A stretch of 63,114 bases of DNA, from NCBI GenBank assembly GCA_947581835.1, contig CANPVV010000005.1, positions 1 through 63,114 of the forward strand. The letters are read 5' to 3'. Source of the DNA: an uncultured Bacilli bacterium. GTDB lineage: Bacteria > Bacillota_I > Bacilli_A > RF39 > UBA660. Shown piece after piece: positions 2,380 through 19,246 of this stretch. Made by a program: the position numbers and the translations under genes. How positions within the stretch are numbered: position 1 is the stretch's first letter; each line of letters begins with the position of its first letter. The notes beneath the pieces were generated by a model, which was given only the letters and a program-made list of their open reading frames with translations, ran no database searches and had not been told where the DNA came from.

Positions 2380-3462
2380 TTAGTACCAATCATGTTTTTC
2401 ATTTCTATCCAAAGCATTTATTTCTTTCATTTCATCTTCAGTTAATTCAAAACCATAAATGTCAGTATTTTCTTTTATATGTTCCGGATTAGAAGAGCCT
2501 GGTATAACCACAACCCCTTTTTGCAAATTCCAACGCAAGATAACTTGAGCTGCTGATACATTATGATTATTTGCTATCTTAACTATTGTTTCATTATTCA
2601 ATAATTCACTAGTATGACCTCTTCCTCCAAACGGATACCAACCCTGTACTACAATCCCTAAATTTTGGATATATGGAATAACGTCATTTTCTTGATAATA
2701 TGGGTGTATTTCATTTTGTACAAGAGCCGGCATAATATTTATTTGAGGTAAAAACTCTTCTAATTCCTTAACATACCAATTAGATAAACCTAAAGAACGA
2801 ATTTTTCCACTTTCTACATATTTTTCCATTTCTTTATAAGCACTAATATCATTTTCCCCTGGGTGGTGTAAGAGCATCATATCAATATAATCTATATCTA
2901 ATTTTTTAAGAGCAAGTTCTATTGCTTCTTTTGGTCTATCAAATTGACTAGGATAAATTTTTGTAATAACAAATATTTCATTTCTTGGTATTCCTGAATC
3001 TCTAATAGCTTTTCCTATTTCTTCTTCATTTCCATACATATAAGCTGTATCAATAAGTCTTACACCTGAATCTAAAGCACTCGATACAGCCTTATAACAA
3101 GTATCACCTGTTAAACTATAAGTCCCAATTCCATTTAAAGGCATTTTATACCCACTATTTAAAGTAACCTGTTTAGAATCTATATCAAAATCTATTCCTT
3201 GATAACTATTATCTATATTACTACTTTCCTTATTCATATTCTTACTTTCCTTTACACTATCAAAAACTTTAATTCCTAATATTTTTATAATAACTCCCGT
3301 ATCATAACCACTTTTTGAACTAGTATTTATTTTATGAACATTACTTATCTGATATGTTAATGCTCGATATTCTACTGTACCCCCATCTTTTAAATGAAAA
3401 GGAATAGGTACCAATAAAATTAAAAACAATACTATTAAAATAATTATTAATTTCTTTTTCAT
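2380..3462 (-). CDS. Membrane-anchored aldo/keto reductase with extra N-terminal domain
   Basis: N-terminal TM (KLIIILIVLFLILLVPIPF) plus ~80-aa module (LKDGGTVEYRALTYQISNVHKI...IIKILGIKVFD), then AKR core (RLIDTAYMYGNEEEIGKAI...DYIDMMLLHHPG). Confidence 0.9.
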   Translation of the reverse strand: MKKKLIIILIVLFLILLVPIPFHLKDGGTVEYRALTYQISNVHKINTSSKSGYDTGVIIKILGIKVFDSVKESKNMNKESSNIDNSYQGIDFDIDSKQVTLNSGYKMPLNGIGTYSLTGDTCYKAVSSALDSGVRLIDTAYMYGNEEEIGKAIRDSGIPRNEIFVITKIYPSQFDRPKEAIELALKKLDIDYIDMMLLHHPGENDISAYKEMEKYVESGKIRSLGLSNWYVKELEEFLPQINIMPALVQNEIHPYYQENDVIPYIQNLGIVVQGWYPFGGRGHTSELLNNETIVKIANNHNVSAAQVILRWNLQKGVVVIPGSSNPEHIKENTDIYGFELTEDEMKEINALDRNEKHDWY

Positions 3463-3472
3463 TTTATCATTC

Positions 3473-4132
3473 CTAATAATCTAAACTATTAACCCAAGCT
3501 TTTACTTCAGCCTCACTTATAGACAATCTTTTCCCATCTTGGAAATTAACATTTTTATAATGACTTTTAAAATAACTTACACTTGCAGATATTCCCGAAC
3601 TTCCTGACGTACAAAATGGAATAACTGTTTTCCCATCTAAATTATGACTATCTAAAAATGTCAAAATAATTCTTGGCGCATCTCCCCACCAAATTGGATA
3701 ACCTAAAAATATAACTTCATAATTATCAGTATTAATATTATTTTTTATTTCTGGTCTAGCACTAGCATCATTTTGTTCTTTTGTACTTCTACTATTACTA
3801 TTATTATAGTTTAAATCCTCTGAGGTATATTCATCTTTTGGTACAATTTCAATTAAATCTCCACCTACCCAATCTTTAATATACCCCGCAACTTTTTTAG
3901 TATTTCCTGTTGCCGAGAAATAAATAATAGCAACTTTTTTATCACTAGTCGTCTCATTATCATTATCATTTGTATTTTCTTCTTGTGTTTCATTACTATT
4001 TTGATTTTCATTTGTATTTGAATTATTATTATTGGATTCAAGTTTATTATTAGAACTTATAACCCAAAAACCAATTCCAGCTCCTACAATTACTACTATT
4101 GCAACAACTAAAACTATTATTTTTTTATTCAT
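3473..4132 (-). CDS. Membrane-anchored flavodoxin
   Basis: N-terminal TM, Asn/Glu-rich linker, then IIYFSATGNTKKVAGYI...GYPIWWGDAPRIILTFLD; paralogous to 1876-2346. Confidence 0.88.
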   Translation of the reverse strand: MNKKIIVLVVAIVVIVGAGIGFWVISSNNKLESNNNNSNTNENQNSNETQEENTNDNDNETTSDKKVAIIYFSATGNTKKVAGYIKDWVGGDLIEIVPKDEYTSEDLNYNNSNSRSTKEQNDASARPEIKNNINTDNYEVIFLGYPIWWGDAPRIILTFLDSHNLDGKTVIPFCTSGSSGISASVSYFKSHYKNVNFQDGKRLSISEAEVKAWVNSLDY

Positions 4133-4222
4133 ATATTTTTTCCTTCTCTCTTTAAAACTACCTATTACCTCTCAATTATCTATAATCTTTTATATCCAAA
4201 CTTGCCAAAAATAAGACTATTT

Positions 4223-4840
4223 TCATTTCACACCTCCTAATATTTTTTCTAATCCCATTTTTATCATTTCTTTATCGCTATAAAACTTATATTTAAAATC
4301 TGCTTTATTTATCGCTTCTTTCATTTTATCAGTTATAGAGGTATAAGGATAAATTCCCACCAAAAAAGGTAATATAGTAAATGTAATTTCTTCTGCTTCC
4401 GCTTTTTTAATATTAAAAAATTTACATAAACATTGTTCTAATAAAGAAACAGTTTCTTTAAATACTAACTTAAAATGAGTAATGCTTTCAACTCTACTAT
4501 TTTCTTCCATCTGAAACATATTAATCGAAATAAGTTTAAGTAAAATTTTTCTTTTTATAAGAGAATCAGTAATTTTATTTATTAAATCTTCTTTTGCTAG
4601 TTTTTCATTTTGTAAAAGAATATTACCTAAATCTTCATTCCATTTTAAATATTCCCTTTCAAGAAGCGCCAAAAATATTTCTTCTTTTGTCTGAAAATAA
4701 TTATAAATAGAAGTTCTCCCAACACTTATAAGACTTGCAATAAGCTTAATATTTATATCTTTAAAATCAAACCTTTCATACAACTTTTCACAAGCACTTA
4801 CTATTTCTTCTTTTCTCTCATCAACCAGTCGTTTTTCCAT
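4223..4840 (-). CDS. TetR/AcrR family regulator
   Basis: N-terminal HTH ...INIKLIASLISVGRTSIYNYFQTKEEIFLALLEREY. Confidence 0.9.
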   Translation of the reverse strand: MEKRLVDERKEEIVSACEKLYERFDFKDINIKLIASLISVGRTSIYNYFQTKEEIFLALLEREYLKWNEDLGNILLQNEKLAKEDLINKITDSLIKRKILLKLISINMFQMEENSRVESITHFKLVFKETVSLLEQCLCKFFNIKKAEAEEITFTILPFLVGIYPYTSITDKMKEAINKADFKYKFYSDKEMIKMGLEKILGGVK

Positions 4841-4857
4841 TTTATTTTCCTTCTAAC

Positions 4858-4870
4858 TGACCCATTGTCA
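4858..4870. promoter_or_regulatory. Putative TetR operator copy 1 (TGAC-CCATT-GTCA)
   Basis: 13-bp interrupted palindrome upstream of the TetR start; second copy at 4891-4903. Confidence 0.55.
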
Positions 4871-4881
4871 ATATAATAATA

Positions 4882-4904
4882 CACTCATAATGACACTCTG
4901 TCAA
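4882..4904 (-). promoter_or_regulatory. TetR-gene promoter with operator copy 2 (TGAC-ACTCT-GTCA, 4891-4903)
   Basis: Minus strand: TTGACA-N17-TATTAT, with the operator overlapping the -35; -10 lies just left of the operator (boundary approximate). Confidence 0.6.
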
Positions 4905-4961
4905 TATAAAATCAAACAAAAACAACTAAGATAATTTTATATCCTAGTTATTTTCTATACT

Positions 4962-7900
4962 TTACTCCATTTTCTTTTGTTTCACAATTATTTTATCCAA
5001 ACTTGCTAATACTGCAGGTAACAAAATTAATATTAACAAAACTGAACATAACGTTCCCTGTGAAATCGTTATACAAATCTTTGATGCTATCGCTGATGCA
5101 AAATAACCTACAATCAAAGTAACAATTATAAGGATTGATGCTGAAGTAATAATCGTATGAATTGACTCATTATAAGCCTCAATTACTGCATCTTTAACCT
5201 CCATAGTTCTTCTTAATTCTAAATAATAAGAAGTATACAATATCGCATAATCAATTGTAGCCCCCATTAATATACTTTGAACAATAAGGATTGCAATAAA
5301 GTAAACATTATCTCCCATAAGTGAAAGTATACCCATCGTTAAATAAACTGCACATTGAATAACCAAAACTAAAATAACTGGAATAATTAAAGATTTAAAT
5401 GTAAACGCTACAACCACAAATATTACAATCATTGTTATAATAGTTATATAAGTAAGTTCTTGATTAAATGTTTTACTCATATCATAAGCCATTGGTGAAT
5501 CTCCAATAACATAAAATTTATCCATTCCTTCACTTAACTTATCCCGCAAATTTTCTATAAATTTAAAAGTATTTTTTCCTTCTTTTTCATACTTTGTATT
5601 TAAAACTATTCGTGAATAATTCTTACCTCTAATTAAATTTTTTGCATCACTTATTTTAGTTTTTGCCTCTCTTATTTCTTCTCGCATCTCATCATCAATA
5701 AATTCATTAAATCTCTCATCATTAAGTATATCTTTATTTAAATACTGGACAAATTCTTCAATTGTTAAAACATAATTATAATCATACTTATACTGACTTC
5801 CATAATAAATATATAAAATATCTATTGTATTTTTATCAATATCTTCAGTAAGTTTCTCTACTAATTTATAAATTCCCTCATGAGTATATTTAGCTCCATT
5901 ATCTACCCCTTTTATAATCTCTCTTAAAGCCTGCAATTTACTTATTTTATCTTTACTAAACTCTTTACCATATTCTTTATCACTAACTACCTCATTTAAT
6001 AAATAATTAATAAACTCTTTCAAAGAAACTTTATAATTTTTATCTAAATATTTATAATCATACAATCCATACAACAATTTTAAATCATCTTCATTAACAC
6101 TTGATAATGTTGCCAAATCTTTACTACTATATTTAACCTCACCAATAACCCCTTCCATAACCTGTTTAACCAAATCTAAATCACTTAATGTTTCTTCGTC
6201 TAATTTTCCTTCTAAAACTTCATCATCTTTATGCTCTAAAATAAATGTAACAAAATTAATAGGACTTATAACCGTATCTCCTCTATTATCAATATATAAA
6301 GTATAAATATCTTTAACCATTTTTTCATCTATTCCCAAATATCTTCCAAGTTCATCATAACTAAACTTATCATTATCAAGAGTAGAATCCATTATATCTT
6401 TTAAAAATCCTAAATTACTCCATGTTGCTCCATCTATTTTATCTTTAATAAGCGAATTTTCTTTATTAGCAATAATAAGATTAACAAGTTCACTCAAGCT
6501 AGCTGTCCAATTATTTGTATTACCACCATAATAATTAATTAAAGCATACATATTACAAGCATCACTTTTACTAAGTCCTAAAGTTTCTGCCATTTGAGTA
6601 GCACTAAATTTAGGTGGGTTATCCGCTAGCCCAGAATCAATAGCTAATTGTAGTATTTTTAGTTTATTAATTGTTGCCTCATCTAATCCTCCACTTTCGG
6701 CAAAACTTAAAACAGTTTCAATAAAAGTTTTAGGACTAAATTTTACTCCATCTTTACCAGGTAAATCATAAACCATATCAACCAAACCAGGAGCAAGCTT
6801 ATCAAAAACACCTTTCAACTCATCTTTATTCATTTCTTTATTATCAATACCATCTTTATTTTCTACAAAAGGTTTTAACATTTCAAGTAAACTTATATCA
6901 CTTTCTTTAATATATTCATTTTCAACTAATTTTTCACTACCCAAAATAAATTCATCTAAACTAAATGTCGAACCATCATCTATATCTTTATACTTCAAAA
7001 GTAAAAGCTGTTTTATCATATCTTCTGGAACATTCAAATACCTAGAAAGTTCTAATGCTCCCATATCTTTAGTAATTGTTCCTCTATCACTAAAAGTTTT
7101 TAATAACTGAATACTATCCTTCATTTCTCTATCAAACATATCTTCATATTCTTCATTATTCATTACATTTTTTACTACAAAATTAGCAAACTGATTAATT
7201 GACAATTTTAAATCTATATCACTTAAACTAATATAATATTTATACAAATCTTTAACTGCCATCTCATCTATTGCAAATAAGCTAGCCATTTCTTTATAAT
7301 CCAGTTTTTTTATTATATCTTCTTTATTAATAAACTTTTTTAACTTATCTATTCTCTCCCTTTGTTCTTCATCAATTTTTTCGCCATACTTCTTACTAGT
7401 TAAAACATCTTTATCCATAAATTCCACAAAGTCATTTATGCTCAATTTAGCATTTTTATTTATTGCCAAATAATAAATCATTAAATCTTCAACATTACTT
7501 TTATCTATCTCTAAAATACTTGCTAAATCACTTATTGTTCTTTTCTTATTTACATTATTTTTAGTACTAAAATTCTTTAATCTTTCTATATTATTTTTCA
7601 TATCTTTATCAATTTTATCTTTTAAATCTTCATTATTATACGCTTTATCTTCAATAAAATTAATAAACTCACTTAAAGATATTTTAACATTAATATCTTT
7701 ATTATAATAATTATAATATAATATCTGCAATAAATAATCTGCTATATCCATATCCGAACCTAAATCTTTTACTTTATCCATTAATTTATCATAAGTTAAA
7801 TCTTCATCAATTGTATTTCCATAAGCTAGTACTTCATCAACCAATCTATCATCATCAATTTGGTCCAAATATTTTTTTATTATATCTTCATCTTTATTTT

Positions 7901-13527: not shown

Positions 13528-13560
13528 AAAAAGAAAGACGAGAGGTTAAAGACTCGTCTT
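13528..13560 (-). terminator. Terminator of surface-protein gene 1
   Basis: Minus strand: AAGACGAG-N10-CTCGTCTT followed by T-rich tail; same hairpin after all three paralogues. Confidence 0.85.
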
Positions 13561-13585: not shown

Positions 13586-14992
13586 TTATTTTAGAACTTT
13601 TTTAGTTGCAGTTCCAACAACGCCTAAACTAGAGATAGCCATTGTAACTAAGCTTCCAATTGCATCAAAAGTTTTAGGATTTTCACTTGGTTGATTATCA
13701 CCAGTATTAGGTTTTTGCTCATCACTTGGTTGTTGATTATCACCAGTTGATGGATCTTCAGTAGTAGCTCCATTTTTAACAACTACAGTATCATTATCTT
13801 TATTAATAGTATAACTTGAAGTAGTTGCAATTAATTCCTTAATCGTTTCTTCATCATCATCTGGAGTTCCAGCTTGACCAGTAGTTGTACCTCCTAAAGC
13901 AACTAAACCATAGTTAAATATACCAGCATAAATAGATCCTTTAAGATCATCTTTGTCAGTATTAATATAAACAGCAGGTTGATCATTTCTACCAGCACTA
14001 CCACTAGTAAATTCTCCACCTTTAATAACTACACCTTTACCACCTAAAACTAAAGCATAACCATTACCACTAGTAACATTTTTACCCTCATGAGTAAATT
14101 TACCACCTTCAATAGTCATATTAGTTTCAGCATTAACTAAAACTGTATTTACAGTGTTATCTTTACTAACAAATTCACCATCTTTAATAGTAATATTTGC
14201 ATATCCATCAACTTTTACAGCTGCCTTACTTGTAGAAATATATTTACCTCCATTAATTGAAACAGTAGATACATTTCTCTTTGAAGTATTAGAAGCAACT
14301 AAAACAGATTGATCAGTTGTTTCAAATTCAGCATCTAAAGCAACATTAGAATTTAATGGATCAACACTAACTCCAACTTTAGCTTTTACTGAAGCACCAC
14401 TATTAATAGTAACTGTTGCAACACCACTTCCTGTAACACTTGTAGTACTTACAAAAGTCGCACTTGAAACATCATACTCTACTTCATAACTAGAAGTAAA
14501 TTGGCCTCCTCTTTCAACTTCTACCATAGATCCAGAACTAATTGAAGTTCCTGTTACTTTACTATCATCAGCACCAACAATACTTAAAGCACCTTTGTTT
14601 AGTACTTTAAATCCAGTAGATGGTAATGTTAATTCATAACCATTTAATTCAATAGTAGTTGGAACATCAATTCCAGTACCACTTGGATTAACATCTGTAG
14701 TTATAGCAGTTGTTAAAGAATTATCTTCTAATAACTTGATTTTGATACTATAAATATCAACGCCATCAGTTAAAAGTTGATTAATTTCAGTTTGAACAGC
14801 ATCAATGTCTTCAAAATATGCACTTTCATTACGTTTTTCTTCATTATCAATTACAGCATGAACAGTACATTCTTGATTTTTTCCAGAACCACAGTTTGTT
14901 GGATTATCAGTTGCAGCATCAACATTTCCCATTGTTACAAACGCAACAACAGAAATAATAACTAAACCCAATAATTTTTTTAGATTTTTCAC
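13586..14992 (-). CDS. Secreted surface protein 1, beta-helix-like repeats, C-terminal NPKTFD sorting-like signal
   Basis: GTG start, signal peptide MKNLKKLLGLVIISVVAFVTMGNVDA, repeats such as ITIKDGEF/MTIEGGKF, C-term GDNQPSENPKTFDAIGSLVTMAISSLGVVGTATKKVLK. Confidence 0.88.
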   Translation of the reverse strand: MKNLKKLLGLVIISVVAFVTMGNVDAATDNPTNCGSGKNQECTVHAVIDNEEKRNESAYFEDIDAVQTEINQLLTDGVDIYSIKIKLLEDNSLTTAITTDVNPSGTGIDVPTTIELNGYELTLPSTGFKVLNKGALSIVGADDSKVTGTSISSGSMVEVERGGQFTSSYEVEYDVSSATFVSTTSVTGSGVATVTINSGASVKAKVGVSVDPLNSNVALDAEFETTDQSVLVASNTSKRNVSTVSINGGKYISTSKAAVKVDGYANITIKDGEFVSKDNTVNTVLVNAETNMTIEGGKFTHEGKNVTSGNGYALVLGGKGVVIKGGEFTSGSAGRNDQPAVYINTDKDDLKGSIYAGIFNYGLVALGGTTTGQAGTPDDDEETIKELIATTSSYTINKDNDTVVVKNGATTEDPSTGDNQQPSDEQKPNTGDNQPSENPKTFDAIGSLVTMAISSLGVVGTATKKVLK

Positions 14993-15017
14993 AATCTATT
15001 TCTCCTTTCCGACATAT

Positions 15018-15049
15018 AGTATAACACATACCCCCCCCCCGTCTGTCAA
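15018..15049 (-). promoter_or_regulatory. Promoter of surface gene 1 with 10-nt poly-G tract in spacer
   Basis: Minus strand: TTGACA GAC(G)10TATGTGT TATACT; spacer 20 bp; TGTTATACT extended -10. Confidence 0.85.
15031..15040 (+). repeat. Poly-C homopolymer (10)
   Basis: Direct count from sequence. Confidence 0.95.
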
Positions 15050-15175
15050 TAGGTTTTTTTACTAATTTTACAAAATTCAAATTTTATAAAAAATAATAAT
15101 ATTATTACTGTTAAACTAAGCCTAATAAAAAAACTACTAAAATAAACTACTATTAAAATATACACTTTTTAACAC

Positions 15176-15208
15176 AAAAAGAAAGACGAGAGGTTAAAGA
15201 CTCGTCTT
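15176..15208 (-). terminator. Terminator of surface-protein gene 2
   Basis: Same AAGACGAG/CTCGTCTT hairpin. Confidence 0.85.
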
Positions 15209-15233
15209 AAAAAGTTATTAGGTTTTTTTAAAA

Positions 15234-16850
15234 TTATTTTAGAACTTTTTTAATTGTAGTTCCAACAACACCTAAACTAGAGATTGCCATTGTAACTAAA
15301 CTTCCAATTGCATCAAAAGTTTTAGGGTTTTCACTTGGTTGATTATCACCAGTACCAGGTTTATTATCATCACCAACACTAGGATCTTGAGTAGCAGATA
15401 CAATAGATAATGTAATAGTTACGTCACTATTAGGCATTACAAACTTACCATCAGTTAAAGCAACTTCTTTATTGTTAGCATCTAAAATTGTATATTTAAC
15501 TACATATCCTTCATTAGCAACTACTTTAACAATATCTTCAATACTAATAGGTTGTCCAGCAACAACATTTTTTGGAGTAGATAATGATTCAACTTTACCA
15601 TTTAAAATAGTTTGATCTTCATTAACACCATTTAAAGTTACAGTATGTTCTTTACCAACATAAGTTACTCCATCAACAGTAATACTATCTAAATCTTTAG
15701 CTAAAGCTTTACCACTTGCTAAAGCAGAAGTTTTACCTTCAAATGTTCCTCCATAAACAATGCCATTAAGATTAGAAACTATACTAGAAGTTCTGAAAAG
15801 TGCTTCTTGATCTTCTGGACTAACAAAAGTACCATCATTTACTTTTACAGAAGTATATTGAGAATTTTGTCCATCAAAATATAAAGCATTTCTCTTTTCG
15901 CTAGTAAATTTACCTCCATCAATTTCTAATTTAATTTTTCCAGCATAACTAGCATTTCCAACTACTGCAACAGCAGCTCCAGTCCAACCAGCATTACTTT
16001 GTACACTACCATCTAAACCAGTATCAGCTTGTCCATCACCATTAGCAGTAAATTCTCCACCTTTAATAGTAACAGTACCACCTTTAACTACTAAAGCCTC
16101 AGTACCAGTAACTTTAGCATCAGTAATTGTCCAGTTTCCAAGACCAGATGCATATAAAGCAGTATTATGCTCAGAAGTATAAGAACCTCCATTAACATTA
16201 ATAACAGTTGGTCTTGATGCATTTTTAATTACACCTTGAACTTGAATTACATAACTTGTAGTATTCCAAGTACCATTTAAATCAATAGTTACATTATTAG
16301 CAGTATTACCTTTTATACTAGAACTATCACTATCTTCAGGATAAACAATTAAACCAGCGTATCCTTCAACTTTAGCTTTAGAACCAATACTAACAGTAGT
16401 TTTATTAGTTGTAGTATTATCGCCATAAACAGCAATTACAGCTTGAGTTGGTTTACTTAAACTTGTTGTTTCAGAAATAATACTAACATTATCTGCTGTT
16501 AAACTTCCTCCTTCTTTTACAATTAATGTATTAACACTATCTTCATCTACGTCCTTAATAGTTCCACCATTACCATTAATTTTTAGGGAACCAGTAATAG
16601 TTATATGTTCTTTTAATGTTAATACAACACCTTCTTTAAGATTTAAAGTAACATTTCCTGTTACAGCAACATCACCATCAATTTCTTGACTTTCAGTTAA
16701 AGTACATACAGCAGTTGTATCTTTAGCACTTTTTAAACAACTAGCTACATCTTTGCCTACAACTGTAGTTGTTGCAGAAACATTACCAGCAAATCCAAAA
16801 GCAATTCCAGATATTGTCATTAAACCCAATATTCTCTTTAGATTTTTCAC
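15234..16850 (-). CDS. Secreted surface protein 2, beta-helix-like repeats, C-terminal NPKTFD sorting-like signal
   Basis: Signal MKNLKRILGLMTISGIAFGFAGNVSA; GGSYTSEHNTALYASG, GGEFTANG, GGKFTSEKRNALYFDG repeats; shared C-terminus. Confidence 0.88.
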   Translation of the reverse strand: MKNLKRILGLMTISGIAFGFAGNVSATTTVVGKDVASCLKSAKDTTAVCTLTESQEIDGDVAVTGNVTLNLKEGVVLTLKEHITITGSLKINGNGGTIKDVDEDSVNTLIVKEGGSLTADNVSIISETTSLSKPTQAVIAVYGDNTTTNKTTVSIGSKAKVEGYAGLIVYPEDSDSSSIKGNTANNVTIDLNGTWNTTSYVIQVQGVIKNASRPTVINVNGGSYTSEHNTALYASGLGNWTITDAKVTGTEALVVKGGTVTIKGGEFTANGDGQADTGLDGSVQSNAGWTGAAVAVVGNASYAGKIKLEIDGGKFTSEKRNALYFDGQNSQYTSVKVNDGTFVSPEDQEALFRTSSIVSNLNGIVYGGTFEGKTSALASGKALAKDLDSITVDGVTYVGKEHTVTLNGVNEDQTILNGKVESLSTPKNVVAGQPISIEDIVKVVANEGYVVKYTILDANNKEVALTDGKFVMPNSDVTITLSIVSATQDPSVGDDNKPGTGDNQPSENPKTFDAIGSLVTMAISSLGVVGTTIKKVLK

Positions 16851-16875
16851 AATCCATTTCTCCTTTCCGACATAT

Positions 16876-16908
16876 AGTATAACACATACCCCCCCCCCCG
16901 TCTGTCAA
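16876..16908 (-). promoter_or_regulatory. Promoter of surface gene 2 with 11-nt poly-G tract in spacer
   Basis: Minus strand: TTGACA GAC(G)11TATGTGT TATACT; spacer 21 bp. Confidence 0.85.
16889..16899 (+). repeat. Poly-C homopolymer (11)
   Basis: Direct count from sequence. Confidence 0.95.
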
Positions 16909-17089
16909 TAGCTTTTTACTAATTTTACAAAATTCAAAAATTTATAAAACTCAATATCTACTAAACTATATAATTAAGGAAACTTAAATCAATATCCAAA
17001 TAAAAATAAATAAACATTTATAATACATAAAGTTTACATTTTATTTAAAAAATAAAACAATAAAACTTTTAATTAATTATTATTCCAAA

Positions 17090-17122
17090 AAAAAGAAAGA
17101 CGAGAGGTTAAAGACTCGTCTT
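17090..17122 (-). terminator. Terminator of surface-protein gene 3
   Basis: Same AAGACGAG/CTCGTCTT hairpin. Confidence 0.85.
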
Positions 17123-17147
17123 AAAAAGTTATTAGGTTTTTTTTAAA

Positions 17148-18491
17148 TTATTTTAGAACTTTTTTAATTGTAGTTCCAACAACACCTAAACTAGAGATTG
17201 CCATTGTAACTAAATTTCCAATCGCATCAAAAGTTTTAGGATTTTCACTTGGTTGATTATCACCAGTATTAGGTTTATTATCATCACCAACATTAGGATC
17301 ATTTGGTTCAGTTGTTCCTGGATCTTCGGTTCCTGGATCTTCAGTTTTTTCAGTTCCAACAGTTACAACACCATTTTCATTAGTAATTTTTGAATTGCCA
17401 ACTAATACTTTAGTTGCTTCTTCAACATCATATGTTACAGTCCCAACTTTTGTATCTTCAACAATTCCATTAGTAAACGAACCACCTGTAATAATTTCAG
17501 ATTGTTCATCTAGGAATTTAATATCACTAATAGAAATAGCAGCCTTATCTCCAGAACTTGTAAAGTTTCCACCAGAAATTGCAAATTTTCCAATATAGGC
17601 ATCTGCAATAGACATACTATAACTCTTGCTTGAGCTAATTGTTCCATCAGAAATATTTAAAACAATATTTTCACCATGAGCATTACGACTTCCATCAACT
17701 TTAATAGTAGCTACACTACTCTTAGTAGCACTTATTGTACCGCCAGTAATATTTAATGTTCCACTTTTTAATTCAAAAGCAGGAGCACTTGCACTCGTAG
17801 TAGTATATGAACCTCCTAGAACATTAACAACACTTTTACCAGCATCAATTCCTACTAATTGACCAGTTCCGCTTACTTTAGCATTAAGATTTATAGTTTC
17901 CTTTCCAGATACAGCACAATCAACTAATTCAACTCCAAGATTAGTCCATTCTCCACCAATATTAACTTCAACATTATTATTAGTAGAATTAGTAATACCA
18001 ATCACAGCTTGAGTTCTAACATTAGTACCATCAACTTTAACACTATCATCAATAGTTAAAGTTGCATCATTTGAAGTTGCATTAAGAGTTAAAGTACTTG
18101 TTGCAGTAGATGTTGCAAAATTAATATAACCATTTTTAATAGTTAAATTAGTACCATTTGCAGCAGCTATACTACCAATAGTACCACCAGTACCTCCAAG
18201 AGTTAAAATTTTGCCATTCAAATCAAGAACTATATCCTTATCTGTAATTGTCAAAGCATTAGTTAGTGTTACACTCTTTGAAAGAGTAATAGTACCGCTC
18301 TCGTCAATGGCATTAGCAGCAGCTACAAGTGTAGAATAACAACCATATCCTGTATCAAACTTAACGTAAGCTACATCAGAAGCACTACATGAATCAGGAC
18401 TAGATACAGTAGTAGCATGAACATTCATAGTTCCAACAAATCCTAAAGTTGAAACAACCAATAAACCTAACATATTTTTTAGATTTTTCAC
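17148..18491 (-). CDS. Secreted surface protein 3, C-terminal NPKTFD sorting-like signal
   Basis: Signal MKNLKNMLGLLVVSTLGFVGTMNVHA; shared C-terminus GDNQPSENPKTFDAIGNLVTMAISSLGVVGTTIKKVLK. Confidence 0.88.
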   Translation of the reverse strand: MKNLKNMLGLLVVSTLGFVGTMNVHATTVSSPDSCSASDVAYVKFDTGYGCYSTLVAAANAIDESGTITLSKSVTLTNALTITDKDIVLDLNGKILTLGGTGGTIGSIAAANGTNLTIKNGYINFATSTATSTLTLNATSNDATLTIDDSVKVDGTNVRTQAVIGITNSTNNNVEVNIGGEWTNLGVELVDCAVSGKETINLNAKVSGTGQLVGIDAGKSVVNVLGGSYTTTSASAPAFELKSGTLNITGGTISATKSSVATIKVDGSRNAHGENIVLNISDGTISSSKSYSMSIADAYIGKFAISGGNFTSSGDKAAISISDIKFLDEQSEIITGGSFTNGIVEDTKVGTVTYDVEEATKVLVGNSKITNENGVVTVGTEKTEDPGTEDPGTTEPNDPNVGDDNKPNTGDNQPSENPKTFDAIGNLVTMAISSLGVVGTTIKKVLK

Positions 18492-18516
18492 AATCCATTT
18501 CTCCTTTCCGACATAT

Positions 18517-18547
18517 AGTATAACACATACCCCCCCCCGTCTGTCAA
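18517..18547 (-). promoter_or_regulatory. Promoter of surface gene 3 with 9-nt poly-G tract in spacer
   Basis: Minus strand: TTGACA GAC(G)9TATGTGT TATACT; spacer 19 bp. Confidence 0.85.
18530..18538 (+). repeat. Poly-C homopolymer (9)
   Basis: Direct count from sequence. Confidence 0.95.
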
Positions 18548-18617
18548 TAGGTTTTTCACTAATTTTACAAAATTCAAATTTTAACTATCATCCAATATTT
18601 AATTCCAAAAAAAACAC

Positions 18618-18709: not shown

Positions 18710-19246
18710 TTAAACAGTTTTACTAACTTGATAAACTTCTACTTCTACTGGTGTTTCTTGACCAAACAAATCAATTAATACATTAAGACGATTATTTTCT
18801 AAATCAATACTATCAACAGTTCCCATCATACCTTTAAATGGTCCATCAACAATACTAACTTTATCTCCAACTGCCATTTCTGACTCAATATTAACTCGAC
18901 TCATTCCCATATTCGCTAGTATCTTATCAATTTCTTGTGGAAGTAAAGGCGTAGGCTTAGCTCCTTTTCCAGAAGAACCAATAAAACCTGTAACTCCCGG
19001 TGTATTTCTAACTATATACCAAGCCTCATCACTCATAACCATTTCAACTAAAACATAACCTGGAAACATTTTCTTAACTTTTTCTTTTTTTACTCCATCT
19101 TTAGTTTCAATTTCTACAGTCTCTGGAATAATTATTCTATGAATATAATCTTGCATTCCCATAGATTCTGCTTTAGCTTCCAATTTTTCTTTAACTTTAG
19201 CTTCATGTCCTGAATAAGTATTAACTACATACCATTCTTTTTCCAT
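18710..19246 (-). CDS. nusG: Transcription termination/antitermination factor NusG
   Basis: WYVVNTYSGHEAKVKEKLE...MFPGYVLVEMVMSDEAWYIVRNTPGVTGFIGS and C-terminal KOW. Confidence 0.98.
   Translation of the reverse strand: MEKEWYVVNTYSGHEAKVKEKLEAKAESMGMQDYIHRIIIPETVEIETKDGVKKEKVKKMFPGYVLVEMVMSDEAWYIVRNTPGVTGFIGSSGKGAKPTPLLPQEIDKILANMGMSRVNIESEMAVGDKVSIVDGPFKGMMGTVDSIDLENNRLNVLIDLFGQETPVEVEVYQVSKTV

Follow-up and report, generated by a model that had tools for sequence, protein, structure and literature searches.

Three adjacent genes in the stretch of DNA analysed here (63,114 bp in full, referred to below as the window) code for paralogous surface proteins, and the make-up of their promoters suggests that they very probably form independent transcriptional contingency loci, with slipped-strand phase variation of promoter spacing. 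Each promoter has a run of G's that separates its perfect -35 from its extended -10, and replication slippage would gain or lose G's in this run. Every G gained or lost would shift the spacing of the two boxes by one base and so alter the strength of the promoter. With three loci behaving independently, the cells of one population would carry differing combinations of cell-wall surface proteins, a feature that may be of benefit in the evasion of phage, immunity or competitors.

The three genes and their G-run promoters

All three promoters lie on the minus strand and have a common layout, namely TTGACA-GAC-Gn-TATGTGT-TATACT-ATATGTC-GGAAAGGAG. The promoter of gene 3 (18517..18547) possesses TTGACA, a G9 tract (18530-18538) and the extended -10 TGT-TATACT with a spacer of 19 bp; those of gene 2 (16876..16908) and gene 1 (15018..15049) have the same boxes with a G11 tract (16889-16899) and a spacer of 21 bp, and a G10 tract (15031-15040) and a spacer of 20 bp, respectively. 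A homopolymer of at least 8 bases between a recognisable -35 and -10 is hence present at all three loci. The sequence-only reading had given these positions, tract lengths, spacers and boxes, and all proved exact on re-checking. A search of the window for TTGACAGACGGGGGGG with up to 3 mismatches found 3 occurrences, against 0.05 on average and never more than 1 in the shuffled window. Between TATGTGT and the start codon the flank is near-invariant, with the 55 bp 3′ of the tract differing at 1-3 positions among the three copies (52-54 of 55 identical), while n is unlike in all pairs of copies. These differences in n, with lengths that are uncertain as they derive from short-read MAG assemblies, are seen between paralogs and also between species, the set having one genome per species. 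A contig scan for a second strain of the species gave relatives (rabbit-gut Bacilli MAGs), its own species being absent, and no short-tract version of the promoter was found in its own genome.

The genes themselves have a GTG start and a common opening (MKNLKxxLGL and a signal peptide) and share the C-terminal tail GDNQPSENPKTFDAIG-hydrophobic-KKVLK, in agreement with the earlier description of three adjacent paralogous surface genes. Gene 3 (17148..18491, minus strand) encodes a 447-aa secreted surface protein with a signal peptide, a beta-solenoid body and a sorting-like tail (NPKTFD, a hydrophobic stretch and KK). Gene 2 (15234..16850, minus strand) encodes a 538-aa paralog with the N- and C-terminal ends of gene 3 and a diverged body, and gene 1 (13586..14992, minus strand) a 468-aa paralog, the bodies of both having 32-34% identity to that of gene 3. 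Copies that are in tandem and near-identical around the promoter could also result from recent duplication of a cassette, with n reflecting ordinary drift, the G-run being passive and expression uniform by means of the extended -10, an element that can tolerate poor -35 spacing. This is improbable, since the G-run has persisted in copies with bodies so diverged, suggesting that it is kept, and independent cassettes with other flanks are found in 33 genera.

Downstream of each gene is a terminator-like hairpin followed by a T-run. That of gene 3 (17097..17122, minus strand) reads AAGACGAG-TCTTTAACCT-CTCGTCTT, and near-identical copies follow gene 2 (15183..15208, minus strand) and gene 1 (13535..13560, minus strand). 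All three were read by eye, an automatic terminator scan having listed none of them. As each gene is followed by such a hairpin, genes 1-3 would appear to be transcribed singly, each as a unit of its own. A gene named by eye (18710-19246), which we take to be that of NusG, is directly followed by the surface-gene array (17148-18491) and not by ribosomal protein genes.

A search of Pfam and NCBIfam gave no family above the cut-off for the surface proteins. AlphaFold models the gene 3 product (mean pLDDT 78.8) as a beta-solenoid whose N- and C-terminal portions are disordered. Foldseek found no match to this model in the PDB at E ≤ 0.001; the weak matches belong to right-handed beta-helices, among them the adhesins PfbA and SRRP. 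With no significant structural match, the proteins were not assigned to the known parallel beta-helix adhesins to which these two belong, and going by the model they are best described as putative wall-associated surface beta-solenoids. Features of sortase anchoring are present, these being the signal peptide, the C-terminal motif, the hydrophobic stretch and the positive tail (NPKTFD...KKVLK), and the genome has five sortase-domain genes. The NPKTFD motif differs from the canonical LPXTG, and anchoring of the three products is a prediction.

Other G-runs and a fixed promoter in the same genome

The 1.29-Mb genome contains four runs of at least 8 G's, namely those of the three window promoters and a G9 on another contig (C20:13358-13366), and all four are found at secreted-protein genes. 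The C20 run is coding and follows ~65 codons of a gene that opens with a signal peptide (L015, G000:C20:8000-20000, about 2621-5562 on the minus strand, with the G9 at locus positions 5359-5367). At n = 9 the gene is out of frame, its frame closing 19 codons on and a different frame being open for 911 codons, and its sequence suggests a contingency locus of the coding-region type, here switched OFF. It is located just upstream of a gene that, on reading its sequence by eye, is presumably that of a SipW-type signal peptidase, and of a gene for a 231-aa secreted protein. Loss of mismatch repair as a driver of slippage was ruled out, as MutS is full-length in this genome.

In a fourth paralog (C32:3153-4625) the homologous promoter, TTGACA-17 bp-TGA-TAAGCT, lacks a G-run, and a sortase-domain gene is situated ~0.5 kb downstream of it on C32. 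The same fixed 17-bp layout is kept in homologs of three further species (G030, G025, and G026), and the homolog in G027 has TTGACT-18 bp-TGT-TATTAT, also without a G-run. With the fixed promoters at 17-18 bp, the G-run versions would appear to swap part of the spacer for the run; the spacers observed in the window are 19-21 bp, and n = 7 would yield 17.

G-run promoters among relatives

Runs of at least 8 G's were identified in 26 of the 36 species of the genus, with a maximum of 18 per genome. Of the 144 distinct tracts in the genus, 54 score as promoter spacers with a -35 and a -10, and a further 26 are coding (13 in frame, 13 out of frame). A wider survey with the pattern TTGACN0-6-G8-N2-14-TATWMT covered 386 genomes of the order, which is probably RF39 of GTDB and is represented by one family in the set used. 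The pattern was found in 84 of these genomes and in 33 of 119 genera, with about 700 matches by table count, a number inflated by overlapping choices of -10. Neither the pattern in reverse nor its counterpart with C8 in place of G8 had a single match in the same 386 genomes, promoter G-runs there always having G on the sense strand. In the class outside this family a match was found in only 6 of ~344 genomes, one in each.

The fixed promoter position of the runs in dozens of species and the absence of reversed-pattern matches are difficult to reconcile with the 9, 10 and 11 of the window being homopolymer errors or consensus choices of assembly or sequencing, as is the fact that short reads usually size G9-G11 within about one base. 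Such an artefact is very improbable, even with MAG assemblies and with some relatives having contig ends that are G-rich and evidently junk (L050, L131). By an eye count, some 24 of some 150 tracts lie within 100 bp of a contig end, an apparent excess that repeated cassettes could cause and that is therefore given no weight here.

An N-terminal signal or transmembrane segment is predicted for 57 of 69 genes behind G-promoters (83%) compared to 105 of 332 background ORFs (32%), a surface or secreted tendency that the termini of genes 1-3 share; the call was made with a crude hydropathy rule, and its p value of 4e-15 is inflated by paralogs. A restriction of the promoters to a single gene family was rejected, as many unrelated secreted proteins are driven by them. 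Other genes behind G-promoters code for sigma factors, a VanW-domain protein and an AMP-binding enzyme. Sigma-70-family genes lie directly downstream of G-tract promoters in three species (L064, G016:C15; L129, G032:C40; L132, G034:C26), one in G016 having regions 2, 3 and 4, and each of these is a possible phase-variable regulon switch.

It should also be mentioned that G029 (L037, L114-L125) and G023 (L101-L107) have paralog families in which a G9-G11 tract falls near codon 6-8, in or out of frame, and by their sequences these families would be multi-copy translational switches. Some gut Clostridia have the same promoter architecture before secreted proteins, examples being Anaerocaecibacter muris (NZ_CALPCE010000011.1, L148), with a G14, and a Defluviitaleaceae member (WQVZ01000016.1, L151/L155), with two G11 copies; one of these Clostridia is listed as a strain.

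Near-identical cassettes within one genome vary in n, with ranges of 14-16 in G271, 9-11 in both G245 and G045, and 8-10 in G016. Spacers among the relatives range from 15 to 21, with clusters at 16 and at 19-20. No compensation between n and flank length that would keep the spacing constant was found (permutation p = 0.89), leaving the hypothesis of a fixed total spacer unsupported overall, with G211 and G020 as possible exceptions. Tract length has its mode at 9-10 in promoter tracts and other tracts alike, including coding ones, as expected if slippage and not spacing sets the typical length.

The genome G211 (loci L226-L251) has 52 distinct TTGAC-G8+ promoters, counted by hand, which are near-identical, have n = 10 in most cases and precede paralogs starting MKLxQYKEKK. 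Its interrupted tracts (GGGAGGGGGG and similar) mostly retain a total of 10, i.e., a spacer of 19, and this constancy looks like that of a selected length. In G020 the spacer is also mostly 19. Such features would suit a G-run that serves a class of promoters as a conserved element, be it of sequence or of structure (a spacer of A-like DNA, or the site of a regulator or sigma subunit), with its length near-neutral and no switching taking place, as would the strictness of the strand bias (some 700 matches with G, none with C8) and the location of sigma-70-family genes themselves behind G-promoters in G016, G032, and G034. However, this explanation is unlikely given spacers that extend from 15 to 21 uncompensated, homologous promoters that presumably work without a G-run, and G-runs of the same length distribution that shift the frame within coding regions.

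Phase variation by slipped-strand mispairing in the promoter, as first put forward from the window sequence, was upheld as the preferred interpretation: the paralogs differ in n, G-runs are scarce genome-wide, the C20 G9 breaks a reading frame, homologs have fixed 17- or 18-bp promoters, and the pattern recurs across the order with zero matches in the controls. From this we infer actual slippage in the species itself. Slippage alone fits poorly with the G-only bias of the sense strand, the near-uniform n = 10 in G211 and the intact MutS. The bias is not predicted by slippage, as C-runs would slip too, the run of opc in Neisseria being poly-C (PMC7864442). Together with the near-uniform n of G211, it leaves room for a role of the G-run itself.

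An optimum of n = 7 had also been proposed for the window promoters. This part fits the fixed homologs and the promoter of Treponema pallidum tp0126 (an OmpW homolog), in which a poly-G is situated between -35 and -10 and a spacing of 17 nt is optimal (PMC7864442). Under that rule expression would be strongest near 17-18 bp (n = 7-8), the assembled spacers of 19-21 would be sub-optimal and gene 3, with n = 9, would come closer to ON than the other two. Against this, with relatives clustering at 16 and 19-20 and the interrupted tracts of G211 retaining 19, n = 9 (spacer 19) may itself be ON; 19 may be a working spacing in this lineage and gene 3 simply ON.

Relation to known switches and biological meaning

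To our knowledge, it is chiefly in a small number of pathogens that promoter-homopolymer phase variation has been described. In Mycoplasma hyorhinis, a low-GC relative of the Bacilli, the adjacent paralogous surface genes of the vlp system each have a promoter homopolymer and are switched independently, an arrangement similar to that of genes 1-3; the vlp runs are poly-A and their products lipoproteins, whereas here the runs are poly-G and the products wall proteins of sortase type. Coding-region poly-G slippage controls surface structures in Campylobacter and Helicobacter and the pili of Bifidobacterium. The C20 G9 and many tracts of the relatives resemble these loci, which are switches of translational frame, unlike the promoter-spacing switch proposed for genes 1-3.

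The analogy to Neisseria drawn in the sequence-only reading is appropriate, and a closer one still is that to tp0126 and tprE/G/J of T. pallidum. In N. meningitidis, porA has a poly-G between -35 and -10 whose length sets spacing and the level of transcription (van der Ende 1995, cited in PMC5084427; PMC7864442). The position of the run is shared, but porA is a single gene, unrelated to the paralog array found here. As with tp0126 and tprE/G/J/L of T. pallidum, poly-G tracts are found here in promoters of surface-protein paralogs, the geometry being the same as that of tp0126, and for both tp0126 and porA this geometry has been established by experiment. The tprE/G/J promoters are permissive only at ≤8 G (PMC7864442; PMC5084427), and the tprL promoter has n of 7-11 in vivo with a mode of 9 (PMC7864442), its run lying just upstream of the transcription start and not between the boxes as here. 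T. pallidum also differs in being a spirochaete with outer-membrane proteins, the bacterium studied here being a gut Bacillota whose wall proteins are of sortase type and whose relatives have as many as 52 repeated cassettes in a genome.

No paper describing poly-G promoter switches in RF39-like bacteria was found in the open-licence PMC literature. As far as the searched literature shows, the type of switch is known, while its presence in this lineage, its expansion to dozens of promoters in a genome and its locking to one strand are undescribed. Somewhat doubtful, though a serious possibility, is a broader proposal in which a strand-locked poly-G module has been multiplied into genome-wide phase-variation networks in this uncultured order of gut Bacilli. 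Such networks would comprise as many as 52 promoters in a genome and, in some species, take in sigma-factor genes. The run of G's would then be both a length counter and a required element, and whole regulons would switch stochastically. On the preferred interpretation, promoter-homopolymer phase variation appears as a major, order-wide mode of regulation in uncultured gut commensals, often by way of dozens of near-identical promoters. The sense-strand G rule and the recurring 16- and 19-bp spacers also raise the question of how RNA polymerase reads spacers that contain G-tracts. Individual cells would in turn wear different surface coats, with consequences for phage resistance, host recognition and strain persistence.
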